Notes under the pieces: generated by a model
What the model was told of the DNA's origin: nothing
The model's input: the letters and a program-made list of their open reading frames with translations, nothing else
Database searches by the model: none
Part shown: one piece after another, positions 25,967 through 36,243 of the stretch
How positions within the stretch are numbered: the first letter of the stretch is position 1
Layout: each line of letters begins with the position of its first letter
Source of the DNA: Acidobacteria bacterium SCN 69-37
GTDB lineage: Bacteria > Acidobacteriota > Vicinamibacteria > Vicinamibacterales > SCN-69-37
Direction: 5' to 3'
DNA: 64,000 nucleotides
Assembly: GCA_001724025.1 (NCBI GenBank)
Contig: MEDJ01000005.1
Coordinates: 1-64,000, forward strand
Position numbers and translations under genes: made by a program

Positions 25967-26959
25967 CTACGTCGTCTGCTGGCGAATCGTGGCGTAGACC
26001 TGATCCATGAGCCGCTGATCTTCCAGCGCGCGCTCGAGGCTCATCTCCGGCTGGCCGCCCCGGCGGATCGACGCTGCGAAGTCCGCGTACATCGCGCGGT
26101 AGCCACGAATGTCCCTGAAGCCGGGCATCATCAGCCGCGGCCCCCGCCGGCCGCGTGCGAGCAGCACCACGCCGTTGGACTCGAACGAGATGACGCCCTT
26201 GCGCCCCATCAGCTTGGAAATGCGCAGCCCACGGAAGAGCGACGGGATCTCCCGCGAGTAGTAGAGCGAACCAACGGCGCCGTTGTCGTAGGCGAACGAC
26301 ACGAGCATGCTCTTCACGCGCCTGTCCGGCCCCTCGTGCGACGGCGCGGGCTGGAACCCGTGGATCGTCGTGATGCGCGGCCCGAGACTGCCGGCAATGT
26401 GCAGCCAGTGGATCCCTTCCTCGAAGAAGGCATCGCCGCCGGCCATGCTCTCGTCATTGCGCCAGTCATCGGCGGTCTTCAGCCGCAGCGCCACCGTCAT
26501 GAAGTGCCCGAACACCATCTCGCCGATCGTGTCGTCGGCCAGCAGGCGCCGCAGGCAGATGGCCAGCGGTTTGTAGTGATCGTTCTCGCCGACGAGCACG
26601 GTGCGACCGGCCTGATCGCGCTGCGCCATGACCGAGAGATAGTCCTCGGTGCGCAGGAACGCCGGCTTCTCGACGAGCACGTGCTTGCCGGCCGCCAGCG
26701 CGCGTTCGGTGAGGTCGAGATGGAAACGTGGCGGAATCGCGATGACGACGGCGTCCACGCCGGGATCGGCGATCGCTTCTTCGTAGCTGCCGTAGGCCTT
26801 CCGTCCCCCGAACCGGCGGCGGAATTCCTCAGACTTGGCGCGGTCTCGACTGGCGTAGCTGGGGACGATCGTGCCCGACAGCGCTCCCTTCAGGTAGGGG
26901 CTGTGGACCCCGGTGATGAATCCACACCCGAGGAACGCAACATGTAAGGGCTCAGACAT
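25967..26959 (-). CDS. Gfo/Idh/MocA family oxidoreductase
   Basis: 330 residues. The NAD(P)-binding Rossmann fold begins VAFLGCGFITGVHSPYL, the catalytic EKP lies in HVLVEKPAF, and the central domain has GGDAFFEEGIHWLHIAGSLG with the usual GIH motif. It has no signal peptide: cytoplasmic. It acts on sugars, inositols or related polyols; the exact substrate cannot be told. An in-frame start at 26995 adds 12 residues that do not belong to the fold, so the ATG at 26959 is used. Confidence 0.9.
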   Translation of the reverse strand: MSEPLHVAFLGCGFITGVHSPYLKGALSGTIVPSYASRDRAKSEEFRRRFGGRKAYGSYEEAIADPGVDAVVIAIPPRFHLDLTERALAAGKHVLVEKPAFLRTEDYLSVMAQRDQAGRTVLVGENDHYKPLAICLRRLLADDTIGEMVFGHFMTVALRLKTADDWRNDESMAGGDAFFEEGIHWLHIAGSLGPRITTIHGFQPAPSHEGPDRRVKSMLVSFAYDNGAVGSLYYSREIPSLFRGLRISKLMGRKGVISFESNGVVLLARGRRGPRLMMPGFRDIRGYRAMYADFAASIRRGGQPEMSLERALEDQRLMDQVYATIRQQTT

Positions 26960-27087
26960 ACACCTACCCGGTTCGGGCCGTTCGTATCGATTCAATCGGG
27001 AGAATCCGGGAGTCCCGCCCCCCGGGCCGCGTCGTTGCGACCGGGGAGCGGAACCTCCCGGGCGTCAGCAGGGAGGATGACGTGCGA

Positions 27088-27552
27088 TCAGCTCTTCTTG
27101 GCGGTGCCGCCAATCTGGAAGCCCGAGTCGTTGAAGTCGAACCACGCCGCCAGATCGGGCCCCTTCGGCGTCAGCGTCAGGACCATCGAGACCGGCCCGG
27201 AGTACGCGGTGAGCGCCCCCGAGTACTCCGTCGAAGCCTTGAGCGTGACGACCTGGCCCGACTTGGTGATGTCGGTGATCTTGTGCTCGGGGAACTGCGG
27301 GGCGCTGACGCCCGCCACGACCTTGCCATTCTCGACACGGAAGACGAGGCTGGCCACGAGCCGCCCGGTGGGCGTCTCGAGCGGAATCTGCCACCGGCCC
27401 ATCAGCGGCGCGGCGTCGGCCGGCGTCAGCGGCGTTGCCGCTGGCCTTGCGGCGGCCTGACCGGCGGCGGACACGTCGGTCCGCGCCACGAAGGGCGAAC
27501 CAGCGGCCACGAACGCGGCCAGCAACAGGAACATCGGAACTCTACGACGCAT
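27088..27552 (-). CDS. Exported protein of unknown function
   Basis: 154 residues from the ATG at 27552 (MRRRVPMFLLLAAFVAAG, a signal peptide). The mature part reads like a small beta-barrel: GRWQIPLETPTGRLVASLVFRVE, TDITKSGQVVTLKAS, YSGPVSMVLTLTPKG. It resembles the short lipid/ligand-binding domains that often follow metal-dependent hydrolases in this type of genome. An upstream in-frame ATG at 27588 is possible. It stands alone downstream of the ADOP-type permease. Confidence 0.7.
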   Translation of the reverse strand: MRRRVPMFLLLAAFVAAGSPFVARTDVSAAGQAAARPAATPLTPADAAPLMGRWQIPLETPTGRLVASLVFRVENGKVVAGVSAPQFPEHKITDITKSGQVVTLKASTEYSGALTAYSGPVSMVLTLTPKGPDLAAWFDFNDSGFQIGGTAKKS

Positions 27553-27603
27553 GAACAGAGCCTCCTGGAACGAATGTGGAGCCATCAATTATAACGTGTC
27601 CCG

Positions 27604-29985
27604 TCAGGCAGTCGGCGTGGTGCGCCGCGCGCCGACGAGAAACGCCACGAACGCGGTCACGAGAATCACGCCACCCGTGACGACGAGCGGCATGAGATCG
27701 GACGGCGTGATCGCGAGGTTGGTGAGGAACGACTCGATCACGCCGGCGAGCCGCATCCAGCCGGCCCACCCCGCGGCGACGCCGACGACGACCGCAGCCA
27801 GCACCAGCAGGCCGATCGCCATCAGCGACTGACGATGTGCGGCGCCGTAGGCGGCGAGCGCATAGACGCCCAGGCCACCGGCCACCAGCACGACCAACGC
27901 CAGGATGCCGAGCAGCGTTTCGGCATACTGCAGCAGGGCGGTCTGCCCCGCATCGAGATACGACTCGACAGTGCGAATCGCGGTCACGGGCACCGCCGGG
28001 TCGACGGACCGCACCTGCGCCCGGACCGCCTGTTCGAGCGCGCGCGGACTGCCCGTCGTCCGCACGATGAACGACATCACCGTCCGGCGGCCTTCGAGCG
28101 ACGCCCGCTGCAGCGTCGCCTGCTGCCGGTGCAGGATGTAGATCAGCGGCGGGACCTCCGACGCGCCCCGGAACGGCAGCGCATCGGCCACCACGCCGAC
28201 GACCTCCCGGGCCGGCTCCTCGTCGTTGGGGAAGAAGTTCAGCGTCACGTGCTGCCCGATCGGATCGCCATCGGGCCAGTGCTGTGCCGCGAACGTCTCG
28301 TTGACGAGGACCACCCACGACGAGTCCGGCTGATCGGCCGGCGAGAAGTCGCGGCCACGCACGAGCCGCATCCCCATCGTCTCGACGTAGTGCTCCGTCA
28401 CGGCCAGATATTGAGCCGCCACACGATTCTCGGGCGAATGCTCTGCGTCATCGATCCAGCACTGCACGAACGGGTTCGACGCAAACGGATGCGTGCCCAT
28501 GCCGGCGGCCTGCGTGACGCCGGGCGTGGCCTGCAGGGCCGCGCGAATGCGGTCGTAGAGCGCCGGGCCGGCCGGACTGAACTCGGCAATCTCGGCGTTC
28601 CCGCTCCCGGAAATGTTGCGCGTGACGTACGGCGTGCGCGGGAGGTACACATCAGCGCTCAGCAGCCCGCTCGGGTCCACGCCCACGTCGCGGCCGCGAA
28701 GGTCGCCGACGGCCCGCGTCGCCAGACTGGTCGCAGCGATCAGCACGAACGCCAGCGCCACCTGCACGGTCACGAGCACCGCCAGCGCCAGCGCACCGGC
28801 CCATCCCCGCGAGGCCGTCTCGGTCCGCGACGCACGCAGCGCCGGCAGCGCCCCCACCACCAGGGCGACGACGACGATGAGCCCGACGAGCCCGCTCACC
28901 AGGCCGGGACCGACACCGACATCACTCAGGCGCGGCAGCACGGTCGGTGTGATCTCGACGAGGCCCGGCAGGATCCACGCCACGAGGACACCGCCGAGGA
29001 CGCCGCCGCCCAGTGCGAGCAGCAGACTCTCGGCGAGCACCACACCCGGGCGCAGGTTCTTCGAGGCCAGCGCGCCCGATCGCTCGCCGAGGACCGTGCG
29101 GGCGCGCATCAGCACGGCCACGCTCACGCACACGAGGAACAGCAGCGCGCCGAGGCCCTGCAGCACGAGCATCAGCGGCTGGCGCAAGCCGCCAAATCGC
29201 GCCTCGCGCCACGGCGTGAGCTCGACGGTCCAGCCCTCGAGGCTCGGGTACTGCTGGACGTATTCGTCGAGCACGGTCTTCACGGCAGCGCGGGCCTCGT
29301 CCATCGAGACGCCGGCCTTCACGCGCGCGAGCGCACGCACGCTCCGCTGGGTCTCCTGGCCGGGCGCCGCCTCGAATCCGAACGTGAACCAGGCGTCAGA
29401 GGCATTGTCGAGGAGCCAGAAGCCCTGCGGCATGACGCCGAGGATTCGCGTGGGCTGGCCGTCGACCAGCGCCGTCTGCCCGACGACCTCCGCGCGACCG
29501 GCAAAGCGCCGCTGCCACACGGCGTAGCTGAGCACGACCGTCGGCTGAGCGTCGACTGCCTCGTCGGCGGCCTCGGGAAGCCGGCCCACCAGCGGATTGA
29601 CGCCAAGGGCCGCGAGGCCGCTGGCCGAAATCCGCTGGCCGGCCAGGCGCTCGGCCTGACCCTCGGCGTCGCCGGCGAGATTGGCCGCCTGTCCGCCGTC
29701 GAACGCGCCCACGGCCTCGAACGCCGCACCGGTCCTGTCTCGCAGCAACTGGTAGAGCGCCGGCGTCACCGGTCCCTTCGAGTCCGGGTTGTCGGGAGGC
29801 GCCAGGCTCACGTCCACGAGCCGATCGGGCTCCGGGAATGGCAGGGCCTTGAAGAGCACGGGACTGGTGAAGCTGGCGATCAGCAGGATGAGTCCCACGC
29901 CGAGGGCGAGCGACACGAGCGCGATGGCCGTGAATCCAGGCGTCGCCAGGAGGCGCCGCAGGGCGAGTCCGAATTGCTGCCTCAT
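27604..29985 (-). CDS. ADOP/MacB-type FtsX permease with degenerate coupling loops
   Basis: 793 residues. It has an N-terminal cytoplasmic/first TM part (LALRRLLATPGFTAIALVSLALGVG), a MacB-like periplasmic domain, a first FtsX TM set, a second periplasmic domain (YVETMGMRLVRGRDFSPAD, VVLVNETFA) and a second FtsX set. That is the two-unit layout of ADOP permeases common in Acidobacteriota. In both FtsX units the usual R..EIAIR.ALGA cytoplasmic segment, which touches the ATPase, is shortened or replaced: RARTVLGERSGALASKN in the first, AYGAAHRQSLMAIGLL in the second. No ATPase gene adjoins. The start ATG is at 29985; a further in-frame start is at 30033. Confidence 0.88.
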   Translation of the reverse strand: MRQQFGLALRRLLATPGFTAIALVSLALGVGLILLIASFTSPVLFKALPFPEPDRLVDVSLAPPDNPDSKGPVTPALYQLLRDRTGAAFEAVGAFDGGQAANLAGDAEGQAERLAGQRISASGLAALGVNPLVGRLPEAADEAVDAQPTVVLSYAVWQRRFAGRAEVVGQTALVDGQPTRILGVMPQGFWLLDNASDAWFTFGFEAAPGQETQRSVRALARVKAGVSMDEARAAVKTVLDEYVQQYPSLEGWTVELTPWREARFGGLRQPLMLVLQGLGALLFLVCVSVAVLMRARTVLGERSGALASKNLRPGVVLAESLLLALGGGVLGGVLVAWILPGLVEITPTVLPRLSDVGVGPGLVSGLVGLIVVVALVVGALPALRASRTETASRGWAGALALAVLVTVQVALAFVLIAATSLATRAVGDLRGRDVGVDPSGLLSADVYLPRTPYVTRNISGSGNAEIAEFSPAGPALYDRIRAALQATPGVTQAAGMGTHPFASNPFVQCWIDDAEHSPENRVAAQYLAVTEHYVETMGMRLVRGRDFSPADQPDSSWVVLVNETFAAQHWPDGDPIGQHVTLNFFPNDEEPAREVVGVVADALPFRGASEVPPLIYILHRQQATLQRASLEGRRTVMSFIVRTTGSPRALEQAVRAQVRSVDPAVPVTAIRTVESYLDAGQTALLQYAETLLGILALVVLVAGGLGVYALAAYGAAHRQSLMAIGLLVLAAVVVGVAAGWAGWMRLAGVIESFLTNLAITPSDLMPLVVTGGVILVTAFVAFLVGARRTTPTA

Positions 29986-30214
29986 CGAAGTATCCGTGTC
30001 CTCATCCGCAAACGATCGCGCTCGAACGCACACGACGATGCCCGGACCGTCGAGGCTCAGTAGGCGACTCTACCCTATCGGCCGGGCGAACGGTAAGGCA
30101 TCGTGACGTTTTTTCGTCGAGTGGACCGGACGTGGAACTGAGAGGGAGTTCAGCCGTTTTCCACGGGAACCAGGCGAATTCGTCACGGGCGCTGTGCCAT
30201 AATCCCGCGTTCCG

Positions 30215-30829
30215 ATGCATTACCTTTCAGAACTTCTCCAGCAGGTCATGGCGTGGATTCTCCCCGTGGCCGAGCGGCTCGGCGCACCGGGACTCGCCCT
30301 GATCGCGTTCCTCGATTCATCGTTCCTCTCGCTGCCGCAGGTCGGGGACGCACTCATCGTCGCCCTCACCATCCAGCACCCGTCACGCTGGATGCTGTAC
30401 AGCGCGGCGACGACGGTCGGGTCGACAGCGGGCTGCTTCATCCTCTACTCGATCGCCAGGAAGGGCGGCGAAGCGTTTCTCCGCCGACGGTTCACCGAAG
30501 ACCAGATCGAGCGGGCGCTGGGCCTGTTCCAGCGCTACGGCCTGCTCGCCGTGATCGTCCCGGCCATGCTGCCGCCGCCGACGCCGTTCAAGATTTTCGT
30601 ACTCCTGGCCGGGCTGGCCGGCGTGCGGCCGGTGGCCTTCATCGTCGGCATCGCCATCGGGCGCGGGTTCCGGTTCGGCGGGATCGGATGGCTGGCGTAC
30701 AAGTACGGCCCGCAGGCCACGCAGTACATCAAGGACAACCTCGCGACCGCGTCGCTCGTGGTCGCCGGCGTCGTCCTGATCATCGGCATTGCCGTGATCG
30801 TGGTGCGTCGGCTCCGCCAGCAGGCCTGA
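30215..30829 (+). CDS. DedA/VTT-domain membrane protein
   Basis: 204 residues with about five hydrophobic segments. Family features are GLALIAFLDSSFLSLPQVGDALIV, the re-entrant loop LPPPTPFKIFVLLAGLAG, and a glycine/arginine segment GIAIGRGFRFGGIGW. These proteins act as undecaprenyl-phosphate or phospholipid flippases/scramblases in the inner membrane and help keep envelope homeostasis. CATAAT (30198-30203) lies 11 bases before the ATG and may be its -10 box, giving a very short leader. Confidence 0.85.
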   Translation: MHYLSELLQQVMAWILPVAERLGAPGLALIAFLDSSFLSLPQVGDALIVALTIQHPSRWMLYSAATTVGSTAGCFILYSIARKGGEAFLRRRFTEDQIERALGLFQRYGLLAVIVPAMLPPPTPFKIFVLLAGLAGVRPVAFIVGIAIGRGFRFGGIGWLAYKYGPQATQYIKDNLATASLVVAGVVLIIGIAVIVVRRLRQQA

Positions 30830-32299: not shown

Positions 32300-32460
32300 T
32301 ACTTCTCCTTGGGGCTCCGGCACCGGCGTTGGCGGCGCTCTGCGCACCTCGACCGCCCTGGCGGCAACGCCTGGAATGAACTTTGGCGCAGTCTACATCC
32401 GGACACCAGGGGTAGACAAGACTAACCCGGAGCATGACGGCGCGAGGTGAAGCGTCCTTC

Positions 32461-32527
32461 ACACTTCTGGCTTTCACCTTCCAACTTCCCCAAACTTCTG
32501 GCTTCTGGCTTCTCACTTCTGGCTTGC
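32461..32527. repeat. Degenerate tandem repeat ACTTCTGGCTT
   Basis: The sequence repeats CTTCTGGCTT-type units five or so times with gaps and changes. It lies in the gap before the ABC ATPase gene and is of unusual low-complexity composition for this genome. It extends in frame with the ATPase gene but is not likely translated. Confidence 0.6.
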
Positions 32528-32541
32528 TGTACCCTGCCCGC

Positions 32542-33615
32542 ATGCCCCCGAAAGTCCGTGTGTCGGATCTGCGCAAGCGATACGGCGCCCTGGAAGCGGT
32601 GGCCGGCATCGACTTCACGATCGAGGACGGTGAGATCTTCGGACTCCTGGGTCCGAATGGCGCCGGCAAGACCACGACGATCGAGTGCGTGCTCGGCCTG
32701 ATCCAGCCCGATGCCGGCACCATCGAGATCTGCGGGCTCGACGCGCGCCGCGAGCCGAGGGCCGTGCGCGAGAAGGTCGGTGCGGCGCTGCAGACCACGG
32801 CCCTGCCCGACCGGATCACGCCGCGCGAGGCACTCGATCTGTTCGGCGCGTTCTACCAGCGGCGCGAGTCGGCCGCCGCCCTGCTCGATCGGTTCTCGCT
32901 GACGACGAAGGCCGACGTGGCCGTCGACACGCTCTCGGGGGGACAAAAGCAGCGTCTCGCGCTGGCGCTCGCCTTCGTCAACGCGCCCGAGCTCGTCTTC
33001 CTCGACGAGCCCACCGCCGGACTCGACGCGCACGCCCGCCGCGAACTCCACGCCGAAATCCAGCAGATGCGCTGCGACGGGCACACGGTCCTGCTGACCA
33101 CGCACGACATGGACGAGGCGGCACTGCTCTGCGACAGGCTGGCCATCATCTCGAAGGGACGCGTGGTGGCCACGGGCCGGCCGCGCGACCTGATCGCCGA
33201 CTCGGCGCGCGTCCAGCAGATCACGTTCACCACCGCCCGGCCGTTTCCCGCGGCGCTGCTCGACGTGCTGCCTGGCGCGTCGGACATGTCCCCCGGGGCT
33301 GAAGCCCCGGGGCTCCGAGAAGAGGGAGACGTGTCCCGGCAGGCAGATCTCAACGGAGCTCCGAGGCTCCGACAGGACGGAGACAAGTCCCCGCAGGCTG
33401 ATCCCGACGGAGCCCCGGGGCTTCGGCCCCGGGGAGACACCGAAATCACTAGCGCCACGCTGCGAACCAGCACGCCGGGCGCCACGCTGCTGGCGCTCGT
33501 CACGGCGCTCGAGGCCCACGGCGTCGGTCTCGACGAACTGCACGTCCGCAAGGCCACGCTCGAGGATGTCTTCGTGGACCTGACCGCCACATCGACCACG
33601 GAGCCGACGACGTGA
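32542..33615 (+). CDS. ABC transporter ATP-binding protein with an in-frame repeat insertion
   Basis: 357 residues. The NBD is complete: Walker A GPNGAGKTT (about 37-45), signature LSGGQKQR, Walker B VFLDEPTAGLD and the His switch LLTTHDMDEA. It belongs to the CcmA/DrrA-type exporters. Between the NBD and its C-terminal part lies a 51-codon insertion (residues 248-298, bases 33283-33435) made of three tandem units of 15, 18 and 18 codons derived from the palindromic repeat found elsewhere in the window. The frame remains open and the C-terminal LHVRKATLEDVFVDLT region is intact. It is translationally coupled (GTGA) to the permease gene. Confidence 0.92.
   Translation: MPPKVRVSDLRKRYGALEAVAGIDFTIEDGEIFGLLGPNGAGKTTTIECVLGLIQPDAGTIEICGLDARREPRAVREKVGAALQTTALPDRITPREALDLFGAFYQRRESAAALLDRFSLTTKADVAVDTLSGGQKQRLALALAFVNAPELVFLDEPTAGLDAHARRELHAEIQQMRCDGHTVLLTTHDMDEAALLCDRLAIISKGRVVATGRPRDLIADSARVQQITFTTARPFPAALLDVLPGASDMSPGAEAPGLREEGDVSRQADLNGAPRLRQDGDKSPQADPDGAPGLRPRGDTEITSATLRTSTPGATLLALVTALEAHGVGLDELHVRKATLEDVFVDLTATSTTEPTT
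33283..33435 (+). repeat. Three tandem units of a palindromic repeat inside the ABC ATPase gene
   Basis: Each unit begins GACrnGTCCC (33283, 33328, 33382) and measures 45, 54 and 54 bases, all multiples of three. Unit 1 holds CCCCGGGGCTGAAGCCCCGG, and the same palindrome and flank recur in the intergenic region at 63060-63091. Unit 3 has a similar palindrome with CTTCGG in the centre. Confidence 0.85.
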
Positions 33616-35282
33616 ACGGCATCTGGCATCAGCTCCGGACCCACCTGACCCTGTATTTCCGGAACCGGATGGCCATGCTCTATGGCTACCTGTTCCCCTC
33701 GGTCTTCCTGCTCGCGTTCTACGTGCTCTATCGCTACGAACGCGTGCCGCTCGTGCGCCACATGGGCGAGTTGCTCACGGTCACCATTCTGGGCGGGGCC
33801 TGCTTCGGCCTGGCGACGACGCTCGTGAGCGAACGCGAGCGCGGGGTGTGGCGTCGGTACCGACTGGCCCCCATCGCCACCGGTGCGATCGTCGTCAGCA
33901 CGCTCGTCGCGCGCTACATCCTGCTGGTCACGGCCGGCCTGCTGCAGATTGCGCTGGCCATGGGCCTGGGCATGCCGCTGCCCGCCCACCCGCTTCATCT
34001 GGTCGTGGCCTTTTCGCTCGCAGCGTTCGCCTTCCTCGGCCTCGGCCTCGTCATCGCGATGCTCGCCGACAACGTGCCGGCCGTGCAGGCGCTCGGCCAG
34101 ACGATTTTCCTGCCGATGCTGATCATCGGCGGCGTGGCCGTGCCGCTGACGAGCCTCCCGGACTGGGCGCTGCACCTGTCGGCCTATTTTCCTGGCCGTT
34201 ACGCGGTCGAGGCGATCCAGGCGACGGTCAACGGCCCGGGACTCGGATCGGTCGGGTTCAGCCTGCTCGCGCTCCTGCTGATTGGCACCGCGGCATGCGT
34301 GGCCGGCGCCGGCATGTTCCGCTGGGACGCCAAGCAGCGATTCGCGACCAGCCACGGCAAGGGCTGGCTGGCCGTCGCGCTGGCCGGCTGGGTCGGCGTC
34401 GGACTGCTGGCCCAGTGGCAGCACCGGATCATCCCGATGGAACTGGCCGCCGAACGCGCAGCCATCGCAGCCGCGGCCAACCGGCCAGCGCCAGCGCCGA
34501 CCGTCCCGGCCGAGGAGCCACCGGCGCCCGCCGGCGCACCCGCATCAGGATCGGATCTCACAGCAGACGAGCACGCATCGGCCGACACGACACCAGCCGC
34601 GTCCCCTGCACCGTCGGAGCCCGCACCAGCGACGCCGGCCCCGACGTCACGCCCCACGCCCGCCGCCATCACGCCGCCGCCCGCACCCGAGCCGGTGCCG
34701 ACGCCGCGCCCAACGGCGCCGTCAGCCCCAGCCGCGCCCACCCCCGCACCGGCCAGGCCCGCCGAATCCACCACGGCCGCTGAACCGGCGCCCTGGGAGA
34801 AGGTCACGCGCGATCAGGTGATGGCCGACCTCGTCTTCGATCGCCTGCCGCCCGATTCCGGCGTCGTCACGCCCATCGCGACGGCGGACCAGGAGCCGCC
34901 CGAGGAAACCTGGACCGATCTCGACGTCCTGTACAACGGGCTCCAGACCTGGGCACCCGGTCGCGTGCCGGACGTCCTCGAACGGACGCGGAATCTGCTG
35001 TTCGTGCCGTCCGTCATCGACGTGTTCCAGTTGCCGACCGAGCCGTACGTCCCGCAGATGGTCTACGACATCCTCGAGCGCGACATCGACAAGGACGTGC
35101 TGATCAAGGTGCTGTACTGGATTGCCGTCCATCCGGACGAAGGCAGCGATGCTGCGGTCGATCAGATGGCCCCGCTCGGCATTCCGAACGGCCCGAGCGA
35201 CATCCAGGAAGTGCGCGGCCGACTCGGGGTCTATGCCGTCAAGCTCATCGGCCGGCTGACAGGGGCGCGACCGGCACGGTGA
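33612..35282 (+). CDS. ABC-2 type permease with Pro-rich linker and extra C-terminal domain
   Basis: 556 residues from a GTG that overlaps the ATPase stop. Residues 1-290 are an ABC-2 (DrrB/YadH-like) permease with six hydrophobic segments and LATTLVSERERGVWRRYRLAP. One more hydrophobic helix follows (WLAVALAGWVGVGLLAQW), then a ~110-residue linker almost only of Ala, Pro, Thr and Ser (about 295-400). The ~155-residue C-terminal domain (VTRDQVMADLVFDRLPPDSG, IDVFQLPTEPYVPQMVYDIL) is unlike ABC-2 permeases. The helix plus linker suggests that this domain sits in the periplasm. Its function is unknown. Confidence 0.88.
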   Translation: MNGIWHQLRTHLTLYFRNRMAMLYGYLFPSVFLLAFYVLYRYERVPLVRHMGELLTVTILGGACFGLATTLVSERERGVWRRYRLAPIATGAIVVSTLVARYILLVTAGLLQIALAMGLGMPLPAHPLHLVVAFSLAAFAFLGLGLVIAMLADNVPAVQALGQTIFLPMLIIGGVAVPLTSLPDWALHLSAYFPGRYAVEAIQATVNGPGLGSVGFSLLALLLIGTAACVAGAGMFRWDAKQRFATSHGKGWLAVALAGWVGVGLLAQWQHRIIPMELAAERAAIAAAANRPAPAPTVPAEEPPAPAGAPASGSDLTADEHASADTTPAASPAPSEPAPATPAPTSRPTPAAITPPPAPEPVPTPRPTAPSAPAAPTPAPARPAESTTAAEPAPWEKVTRDQVMADLVFDRLPPDSGVVTPIATADQEPPEETWTDLDVLYNGLQTWAPGRVPDVLERTRNLLFVPSVIDVFQLPTEPYVPQMVYDILERDIDKDVLIKVLYWIAVHPDEGSDAAVDQMAPLGIPNGPSDIQEVRGRLGVYAVKLIGRLTGARPAR

Positions 35283-35287
35283 GACCT

Positions 35288-35584
35288 CAGGTACGACGGG
35301 TACGACGGGCGACAGGAACCTGATCCTTGCCTTCTTTAATTTAGTGGCGGGCGGTCGATGTTCGCCCGCACAAACGCGCCGGACGTAACGCGGATCCTTG
35401 CTCACTTCAATTAGATGGCGGGTGCTCGATGTTCACCGGCACAAGCGTGCCGGACGTGACGCGGATCCTTGCCCGCTTCATTGATGGTGGACGCTCGATG
35501 TTCACCGGTACGACCGGCGATCACCGCGCGACCCTGCCTGCCAGTTGAAGGTGGTATGTGTCAGGTTCCTGTCGCCCGTCGTAC
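35288..35584. repeat. Inverted-repeat element A with 71-bp tandem repeats inside
   Basis: The outer arms are GTACGACGGGCGACAGGAAC plus CTGA (35300-35323) and its exact complement (35561-35584), a 24-bp perfect inverted repeat. Inside are two 71-bp direct repeats starting GATCCTTGC at 35322 and 35393, and a partial third at 35464. Unit 2 includes the hairpin CCGGCAC-AAGC-GTGCCGG. This fills the gap between the ABC permease and the ECF sigma gene. No ORF in it looks real. Confidence 0.85.
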
Positions 35585-35619
35585 CTGTCGCACCCGTGTC
35601 CTTGTATCATTACCCCCGC

Positions 35620-36243
35620 GTGCCCCTGGTTCCGCGCTTCGAATTCGATGCGGCGTACGTCGAACGCCTCACCAGCGGCGACGAGACGACCGAGCGTCAT
35701 TTCACGGAGTATTTCGGCGATCTCCTCGCGATCAAACTGCGCTCGCGCCTGCGCTCGCCCGCCCTCATCGATGACGTGAAACAGGAGACCTTTCTGCGCG
35801 TGCTGACGACGCTGCGGCGCAAGGGGGGCCTGGTGTCGGCCGGCGGCCTCGGCGCATTCGTCAACACCACCTGCAACAACGTGCTGTTCGAAACCTACAG
35901 GGCCGAAACGCGCCGCCGCCAGAACGTGCCCGAGGACGAGACGCCGCTCGAAGCCCCGACCGCCAGCGTCGAGACGGTGATGCTCGATGCCGACGAGCAC
36001 GCGCTCGTGCGCCGGGCGATCGCCGAATTACCCGCGAAGGACCGCGACCTGCTCCGCTCGCTCTTCTTCGAGGAACGCGACAAGGACGAACTCTGCCGGA
36101 CGCTGGGCGTCGACCGGCAGTACCTGCGCGTGCTGCTGCACCGCGCCAAGGGCCGGTTCCGCACGGCGTTCGCGAGCCTCGACACGGGCGCCGTCGCGTC
36201 CGGCGGCCGCGGTGAAACGTCCGGCCGGGACGATGCACCATGA
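35620..36243 (+). CDS. ECF-type RNA polymerase sigma factor
   Basis: 207 residues from the GTG at 35620. Region 2 is seen around LIDDVKQETFLRVLTTLRRKG with GAFVNTTCNNVLFETYRAE; region 4 has LLRSLFFEERDKDELCRTLGVDRQYLRVLLHRAKGR as its helix-turn-helix. TATCAT (35605-35610) may be the -10 box, close to the start. An upstream in-frame ATG (35545) lies inside element A, so it is unlikely. The gene overlaps or abuts an anti-sigma gene (ATGA at 36240), the common pairing. The targets are unknown; the operon itself is the first guess. Confidence 0.9.
   Translation: MPLVPRFEFDAAYVERLTSGDETTERHFTEYFGDLLAIKLRSRLRSPALIDDVKQETFLRVLTTLRRKGGLVSAGGLGAFVNTTCNNVLFETYRAETRRRQNVPEDETPLEAPTASVETVMLDADEHALVRRAIAELPAKDRDLLRSLFFEERDKDELCRTLGVDRQYLRVLLHRAKGRFRTAFASLDTGAVASGGRGETSGRDDAP

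Follow-up and report, generated by a model that had tools for sequence, protein, structure and literature searches.

Within the window, as we call the whole stretch of 64,000 nucleotides analysed here (positions 1 to 64,000 of contig MEDJ01000005.1, assembly GCA_001724025.1, Acidobacteria bacterium SCN 69-37), one gene encodes a permease of the ADOP family that lacks the major coupling helices of both its halves while both periplasmic domains are kept. We read its product as a pseudo-permease, a type VII ADOP resembling MacB and YbbP, that is uncoupled from ATP and serves as a scaffold or receptor, and we give this combined reading a probability of roughly 0.4. Its two components differ in strength: uncoupling from ATP is likely, whereas the passive role of scaffold or receptor in the periplasm is proposed tentatively. 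The features to which we refer are these:

27604..29985, minus strand: ADOP-family duplicated type VII permease without ATPase-docking coupling helices, 793 aa
29854..29940, minus strand: TM1, residues 16-44, from the AlphaFold model
29212..29820, minus strand: periplasmic domain 1, a MacB_PCD match, residues about 56-258, normal conservation
29056..29106, minus strand: site of the lost major coupling helix 1 between TM2 and TM3, residues 294-310, from alignment and AlphaFold
28795..28842, minus strand: minor coupling helix of half 1, weak, with a shortened linker between TM4 and TM5, residues 382-397
27970..28665, minus strand: periplasmic domain 2, residues about 441-672, normal conservation
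27805..27852, minus strand: site of the lost major coupling helix 2 between TM6 and TM7, residues 712-727, from alignment and AlphaFold
27607..27636, minus strand: truncated C-terminus without the VDPxxALRxE segment, residues 784-793
27088..27552, minus strand: next gene downstream, 154 aa, its ATG at 27552 preceded by AGGAGG

Coupling sites and periplasmic domains across the family

The first-pass annotation had placed an ADOP-type permease here, and the ORF is confirmed at those coordinates, on the minus strand: the gene runs from an ATG at 29985 to a stop at 27604-27606 through 793 intact codons, with a GTG at 30033 as an alternative start. The TIGR03434 profile matches the protein over almost its full length (profile positions 3-792 of 803; 472.5 bits, E 2.3e-141), albeit under the curated cut-off (472 vs 622.3 bits). 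Pfam recovers two MacB_PCD stretches, and the FtsX C-terminal domain weakly and in half 1 only (16.7 bits against a cut-off of 25.5). The tandem of MacB_PCD plus FtsX halves in one chain is nonetheless present, both halves being formed in the structure model. GC3 is 0.89 across the gene, 0.92 at site 1 and 0.78 at site 2, and the alternative frames at both major sites, read by eye for a hidden frameshift, contain no coupling helix. Genomes of acidobacteria and their neighbours carry many ADOPs each; the host genome (4.43 Mb in 25 contigs, listed as 100% complete with 1.82% contamination) holds 47 TIGR03434 matches, a count that includes fragments and MacB-type genes, and nine of them exceed the cut-off.

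We surveyed 285 full-length ADOPs, window protein included, aligned to an HMM that was built without it. They derive from the host genome (18 full-length open frames, the window protein among them), genome-search loci (65), contig loci (133, from 73 of the 80 named loci examined) and the regions of relatives (69); host-genome L009 and L011 are excluded from the counts. The first collection retained 202 of 226 matches, 201 of them distinct, by admitting only ORFs that span the profile and removing duplicates; a second batch contributed 17 full-length sequences (16 new), and a third, from relatives' regions, 81 of 87 (68 new). At both major sites we scored the conserved segment R-E-I-x-I-R-x-A-L-G-A, whereas minor coupling helices were assigned by our own reading, in analogy with MacB. 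Counting motifs without an alignment proved too noisy and was discarded.

That both coupling loops are changed, as the annotation had claimed, holds against this background, the window protein being the sole member of the survey disrupted at both major sites. Site 1 combines substitutions with a 5-residue gap between TM2 and TM3, and site 2 has a 15-residue gap between TM6 and TM7; gaps of at least three residues at both sites occur in no other of the 285 sequences, and at one site in L039 (site 1 only) and in L114 and L143 (site 2 only). The acidic residue of the segment is kept in 280/285 sequences at site 1 and again in 280/285 at site 2, and is absent from the window protein at both. The glycine is kept in 283/285 at each site, a figure that at site 2 includes the window protein because an isolated G happens to fall on that column. 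Region scores for the window protein are the lowest of the 285 at site 1 (z -8.3, rank 1) and next to lowest at site 2 (z -7.9, rank 2); the row below it at site 2 in the first pass of 201 sequences was L143, whose ORF lacks most of TM6 and the site itself. Equal divergence of typical ADOPs, which the annotation had named as what would speak against it, is not what the survey shows: on the 285-sequence scores the window protein stands at z about -8 at these sites.

The loss goes beyond what had been claimed, as the C-terminal minor coupling helix is gone too. The VDPxxALRxE segment that we take for this helix is present in other ADOPs and absent here (4.3 SD below the others, rank 4 of 285). 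In half 1 the minor coupling helix scores weakly (z -2.3, rank 7 of 285; -1.5 in the first pass). The 201-sequence pass gave the same overall picture, and in it the summed coupling score lay 5.9 SD below the value predicted from conservation in the rest of the protein. Another ADOP, L269 5808-8567, at first appeared to be a second case without coupling helices; re-alignment to the HMM and inspection recovered both helices and exposed an alignment artefact.

The periplasmic domains are, as annotated, kept, with z scores of -0.9 and -0.8 among the 285 ADOPs. When positions conserved in 80% or more of 217 sequences are considered, the window protein retains 18/22 and 19/22 in the two periplasmic domains and 5/14 and 2/10 at the coupling sites. 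The claim that the TM helices are likewise kept survives for the predicted fold and fails for the sequence, where TM2 scores z -4.4, TM1 -2.9, TM6 -2.6 and the others between -2.1 and -2.6. The N-terminal amphipathic helix, which in MacB connects TM1 and the ATPase domain, is also kept (z -1.3, rank 21 of 285).

Predicted fold and comparison with known systems

The AlphaFold model of the window protein (95 aligned sequences, mean pLDDT 88.3, pTM 0.86) forms eight TM helices and both periplasmic domains and contains no coupling helices. TM2 is joined to TM3 by a ten-residue low-confidence linker (303-312, with pLDDT under 50 at 305-307), TM6 to TM7 by a 4-residue turn (717-720). A canonical ADOP modelled likewise as a control (L145:863-3256, 977 bits) does form a short helix at each of the four major and minor sites (297-305, 391-396, 703-711 and 791-797), the second of them with low confidence (block pLDDT 57). 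Its gene sits between two ABC ATPase ORFs; a scan of one of them (103-813) places it with ATPases of the MacB/LolD/DarD kind.

Compared with known structures, the window model matches E. coli YbbP best (Z 20.1, rmsd 10.4, 578 aligned), followed by a pneumococcal MacB-like permease and then by MacB, BceB, FtsX and LolE chains. Foldseek agrees on YbbP and MacB with modest TM-scores, 0.33-0.41 in the case of YbbP. Fewer than a fifth of the listed matches reach past residue 692, though the YbbP alignment spans 3-793. Model and matches together display the fold of type VII permeases, with TM1, a periplasmic domain and three further TM helices in each half; the ATPase-docking coupling helices of that class are absent from the window protein in both survey and model.

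Other TIGR03434 ADOPs share with the window protein, which has eight TM helices in its model, two periplasmic domains and two FtsX-type halves, but they keep the major helices of both halves along with the C-terminal minor one, all three of which the window protein lacks. In MacB, the accessible part of PMC5985334 describes a major coupling helix between TM2 and TM3 that transmits movement between ATPase and membrane domain, and a C-terminal minor coupling helix that contacts the ATPase as well. The permease part of MacB (PF12704/PF02687; 5gko, 5nik) matches the first half of the window protein structurally and its isolated periplasmic domains match either half; MacB differs, by the same partial source, in having its own ATPase domain, which was crystallised as a dimer, and in possessing both kinds of coupling helix. 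The YbbP of YbbAP-TesA (9ge6, 9ge7) is, like the window protein, a type VII permease that is duplicated internally and has two periplasmic domains. In the available sections of PMC12646458, however, it has 10 TM helices and two coupling helices (TM2-3 and TM8-9) that contact two YbbA, compared with eight and none here. FtsX of FtsEX, likewise a type VII permease, acts on a partner in the periplasm and again matches the first half of the window protein, but requires for FtsE binding a coupling helix that the window protein does not have: as far as the accessible text of PMC7468199 goes, the peptide ISREIQIMRLVGA from the coupling site of pneumococcal FtsX has a Kd of about 82 nM for FtsE, and neither the I216K nor the V220K mutant of FtsX is viable. 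A search of the open-licence literature found no description of a coupling-less ADOP or of permeases without coupling helix or ATPase.

ATPases, relatives and neighbouring genes

The 'orphan' in the ADOP family name denotes the lack of an adjacent ATPase gene, and we know of no function for these proteins. The annotation had counted the missing nearby ATPase as evidence for action without ATP. It is not diagnostic, since this is the usual situation for ADOPs that still keep their coupling helices: 120 of the 133 contig-locus ADOPs are without a co-directional ABC ATPase ORF within 300 bp, by motif-based detection. The 13 paired with one lie in 8 of the 73 loci (L098, L101, L108, L111, L132, L145, L153 and L154), and pairings may have been missed because for 40/133 fewer than 1000 bases are available on at least one side. 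Coupling helices are equally well kept in paired and unpaired members of this set. In the second set, from relatives' regions, 2 of 81 ADOPs are paired (the 81 include 13 known from the first collections). Seven ATPases, from seven of the eight loci, scored best against models of DarD, then MacB, LolD or similar, all below cut-offs; with ATPases of this kind beside some ADOPs, the 'orphan' in the family name is not strictly true.

That no ATPase gene is near the window ADOP is true of adjacent genes only. The sole ABC ATPase that motifs identify in the window (32434-33615) lies 2.4 kb away on the opposite strand, and it is of the ABC-2 class: DrrA is the model that it fits best (247 bits, under that model's cut-off), and its gene overlaps with that of the ABC-2 permease belonging to it. 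The host genome has 82 ABC_tran matches, none of them within 2.4 kb of a full-length ADOP. Orphan ADOPs thus remain bound to a shape that fits an ATPase, presumably for ATPases encoded elsewhere, and the window protein has escaped that constraint.

Searches of 162 genomes of the order, 14 of the family, 193 of the class and a phylum sample of 396 (overlapping sets) found no ortholog, the matches listed reaching at most 285 bits and 30-37% identity. A distant ortholog could have been missed, since candidates scored per genome were the best six for the order, five for the class and two for the phylum, and nearly all for the family. A search of the contig set (query P0002) found no relative either. 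The proposal that the variant might be a clade of its own therefore finds no second member, and the protein is a singleton as far as searched. In a tree of 217 ADOPs with the coupling columns masked, it joins L007 of the host genome (support 0.89; deeper nodes are weak) on a terminal branch of 1.31 substitutions per site, rank 7, and has the longest root-to-tip path of all.

Turning to the locus, the product of the downstream gene has an N-terminus that looks by eye like a signal peptide and has no Pfam match; it is a possible partner of the window ADOP. Around its homologs (G000:C3, G003:C11, G001:C110) no ORF matches the window ADOP (blastp, 1e-6), although G000:C3 has two partial TIGR03434 matches about 3 to 5 kb from the homolog, and the neighbourhoods in G000, G001 and G003 thus lend no clear support to linkage. 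Four places examined in G001 and G003 contain homologs of flanking genes, some as neighbouring pairs, and no copy of the window ADOP. An ADOP in G003 beside an ABC-2 operon homologous to 32434-35282 was considered as a positional ortholog and rejected, its coupling helices being canonical and its identity 28%. A look for a sigma-70-like promoter or a terminator in 26900-30400 found neither. The ORF at 33612-35282 joins, by eye, an ABC-2 permease to a long stretch rich in Pro and Ala, beyond which the C-terminus continues with another part; its homologs have 69% identity in G001 and 55% in G003, and in G001 the homolog is followed by that of window ORF 35545-36243, which looks like a sigma factor by eye.

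Competing explanations and other unusual ADOPs

How might a permease without docking helices have persisted? With those helices deleted or eroded, an ATPase would be unable to drive the protein by the usual route and mechanotransmission would be lost. Selection may nevertheless have kept the pair of periplasmic domains on its membrane stalk, most likely so that the protein, static and anchored in the membrane, binds a lipid or a partner in the periplasm as a scaffold, receptor or decoy, much as YbbP holds TesA or FtsX holds EnvC, here without ATP-driven movement. In general terms the gene could exemplify a pseudo-ABC transporter, a type VII permease that lost the interface to its motor and was retained in the periplasm as a scaffold, receptor or decoy independent of ATP; we consider this conceivable, with the odds somewhat against it. 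Such a protein would be, with the same reserve, a membrane counterpart of pseudoenzymes. The argument for retention is that free decay along a terminal branch as long as 1.31 should have hit the periplasmic domains too, yet their conserved positions are kept. Several points count against it: the searched genomes yielded no ortholog by which purifying selection on this gene could be shown, general relaxation could explain the diverged TM helices and the longest root-to-tip path, the branch length may have accumulated before coupling was lost, and the N-terminal amphipathic helix is kept.

Relaxation is the core of a serious alternative, to which we would assign a sizeable minority chance: the protein could be a redundant ADOP paralogue under relaxed selection that no longer has a surface for the motor and is itself on the way to being lost, whatever function it still has being residual. 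Redundancy is easily imagined in a genome with 47 TIGR03434 matches, even if these include fragments and MacB-type genes and nine are over the cut-off, and the lack of an ortholog among 162 order and 14 family genomes (best candidates scored), the tree ranks (7 for the terminal branch, 1 for root-to-tip, of 217) and the diverged TM segments all fit. So does the state of other host ADOPs, L019, L017 and L018 being among the five lowest summed coupling scores and L001, L005, L012 and L020 lacking the acidic residue at site 1. If the gene were simply decaying, however, neither an intact 793-codon frame with coding-like GC3 nor periplasmic conservation equal to that of other ADOPs would be expected, and the loss would not be concentrated at the cytoplasmic interface. 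Moreover, L017-L020, with poorer periplasmic scores, still keep the coupling-helix core.

Alternatively, the protein might still work with an ATPase, or with some other partner in the cytoplasm, by way of a non-canonical interface, to which the N-terminal amphipathic helix and the short loops that remain could for instance contribute. The retention of that helix (z -1.3, rank 21 of 285) would fit, and the 82 ABC_tran matches imply that partners are available in trans. This is unlikely, though, given the absence of the major helices, through which MacB, FtsX and YbbP touch the ATPase, and of the C-terminal minor one, and given that the model joins TM6 to TM7 by a 4-residue turn. It is very improbable that the coupling segments were lost or altered through an error of assembly or sequencing: the sequence does come from a draft genome of 25 contigs and a single source, but the changes affect separate sites in each half without breaking the frame, no canonical helix is present in the other frames at either major site, and the genome is listed as 100% complete with 1.82% contamination.

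Having lost the docking helices, the window protein is a natural negative control for its family and may exemplify a transporter put to new use without its motor. Nearly all surveyed ADOPs have intact coupling helices, from which we infer that they use ATPases, mostly encoded elsewhere. Should several such cases be found, ATP-independent action of type VII permeases would become directly testable.

The survey also contained other unusual ADOPs. L114 1227-3848 has a 10-residue deletion at site 2 only, L039 1468-3918 a 4-residue deletion at site 1 only, and L143 952-3273 lacks most of TM6 together with site 2; these are possibly half-uncoupled members or sequence errors. The host paralogues L017, L018, L019 and L020 are strongly diverged, with low periplasmic and some low minor coupling scores, and their major coupling motif is still recognisable. 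Finally, one uninterrupted frame, L063 1462-5100, encodes 1213 aa in which three MacB_PCD and four FtsX stretches are recognised, perhaps fused or triplicated ADOP halves.
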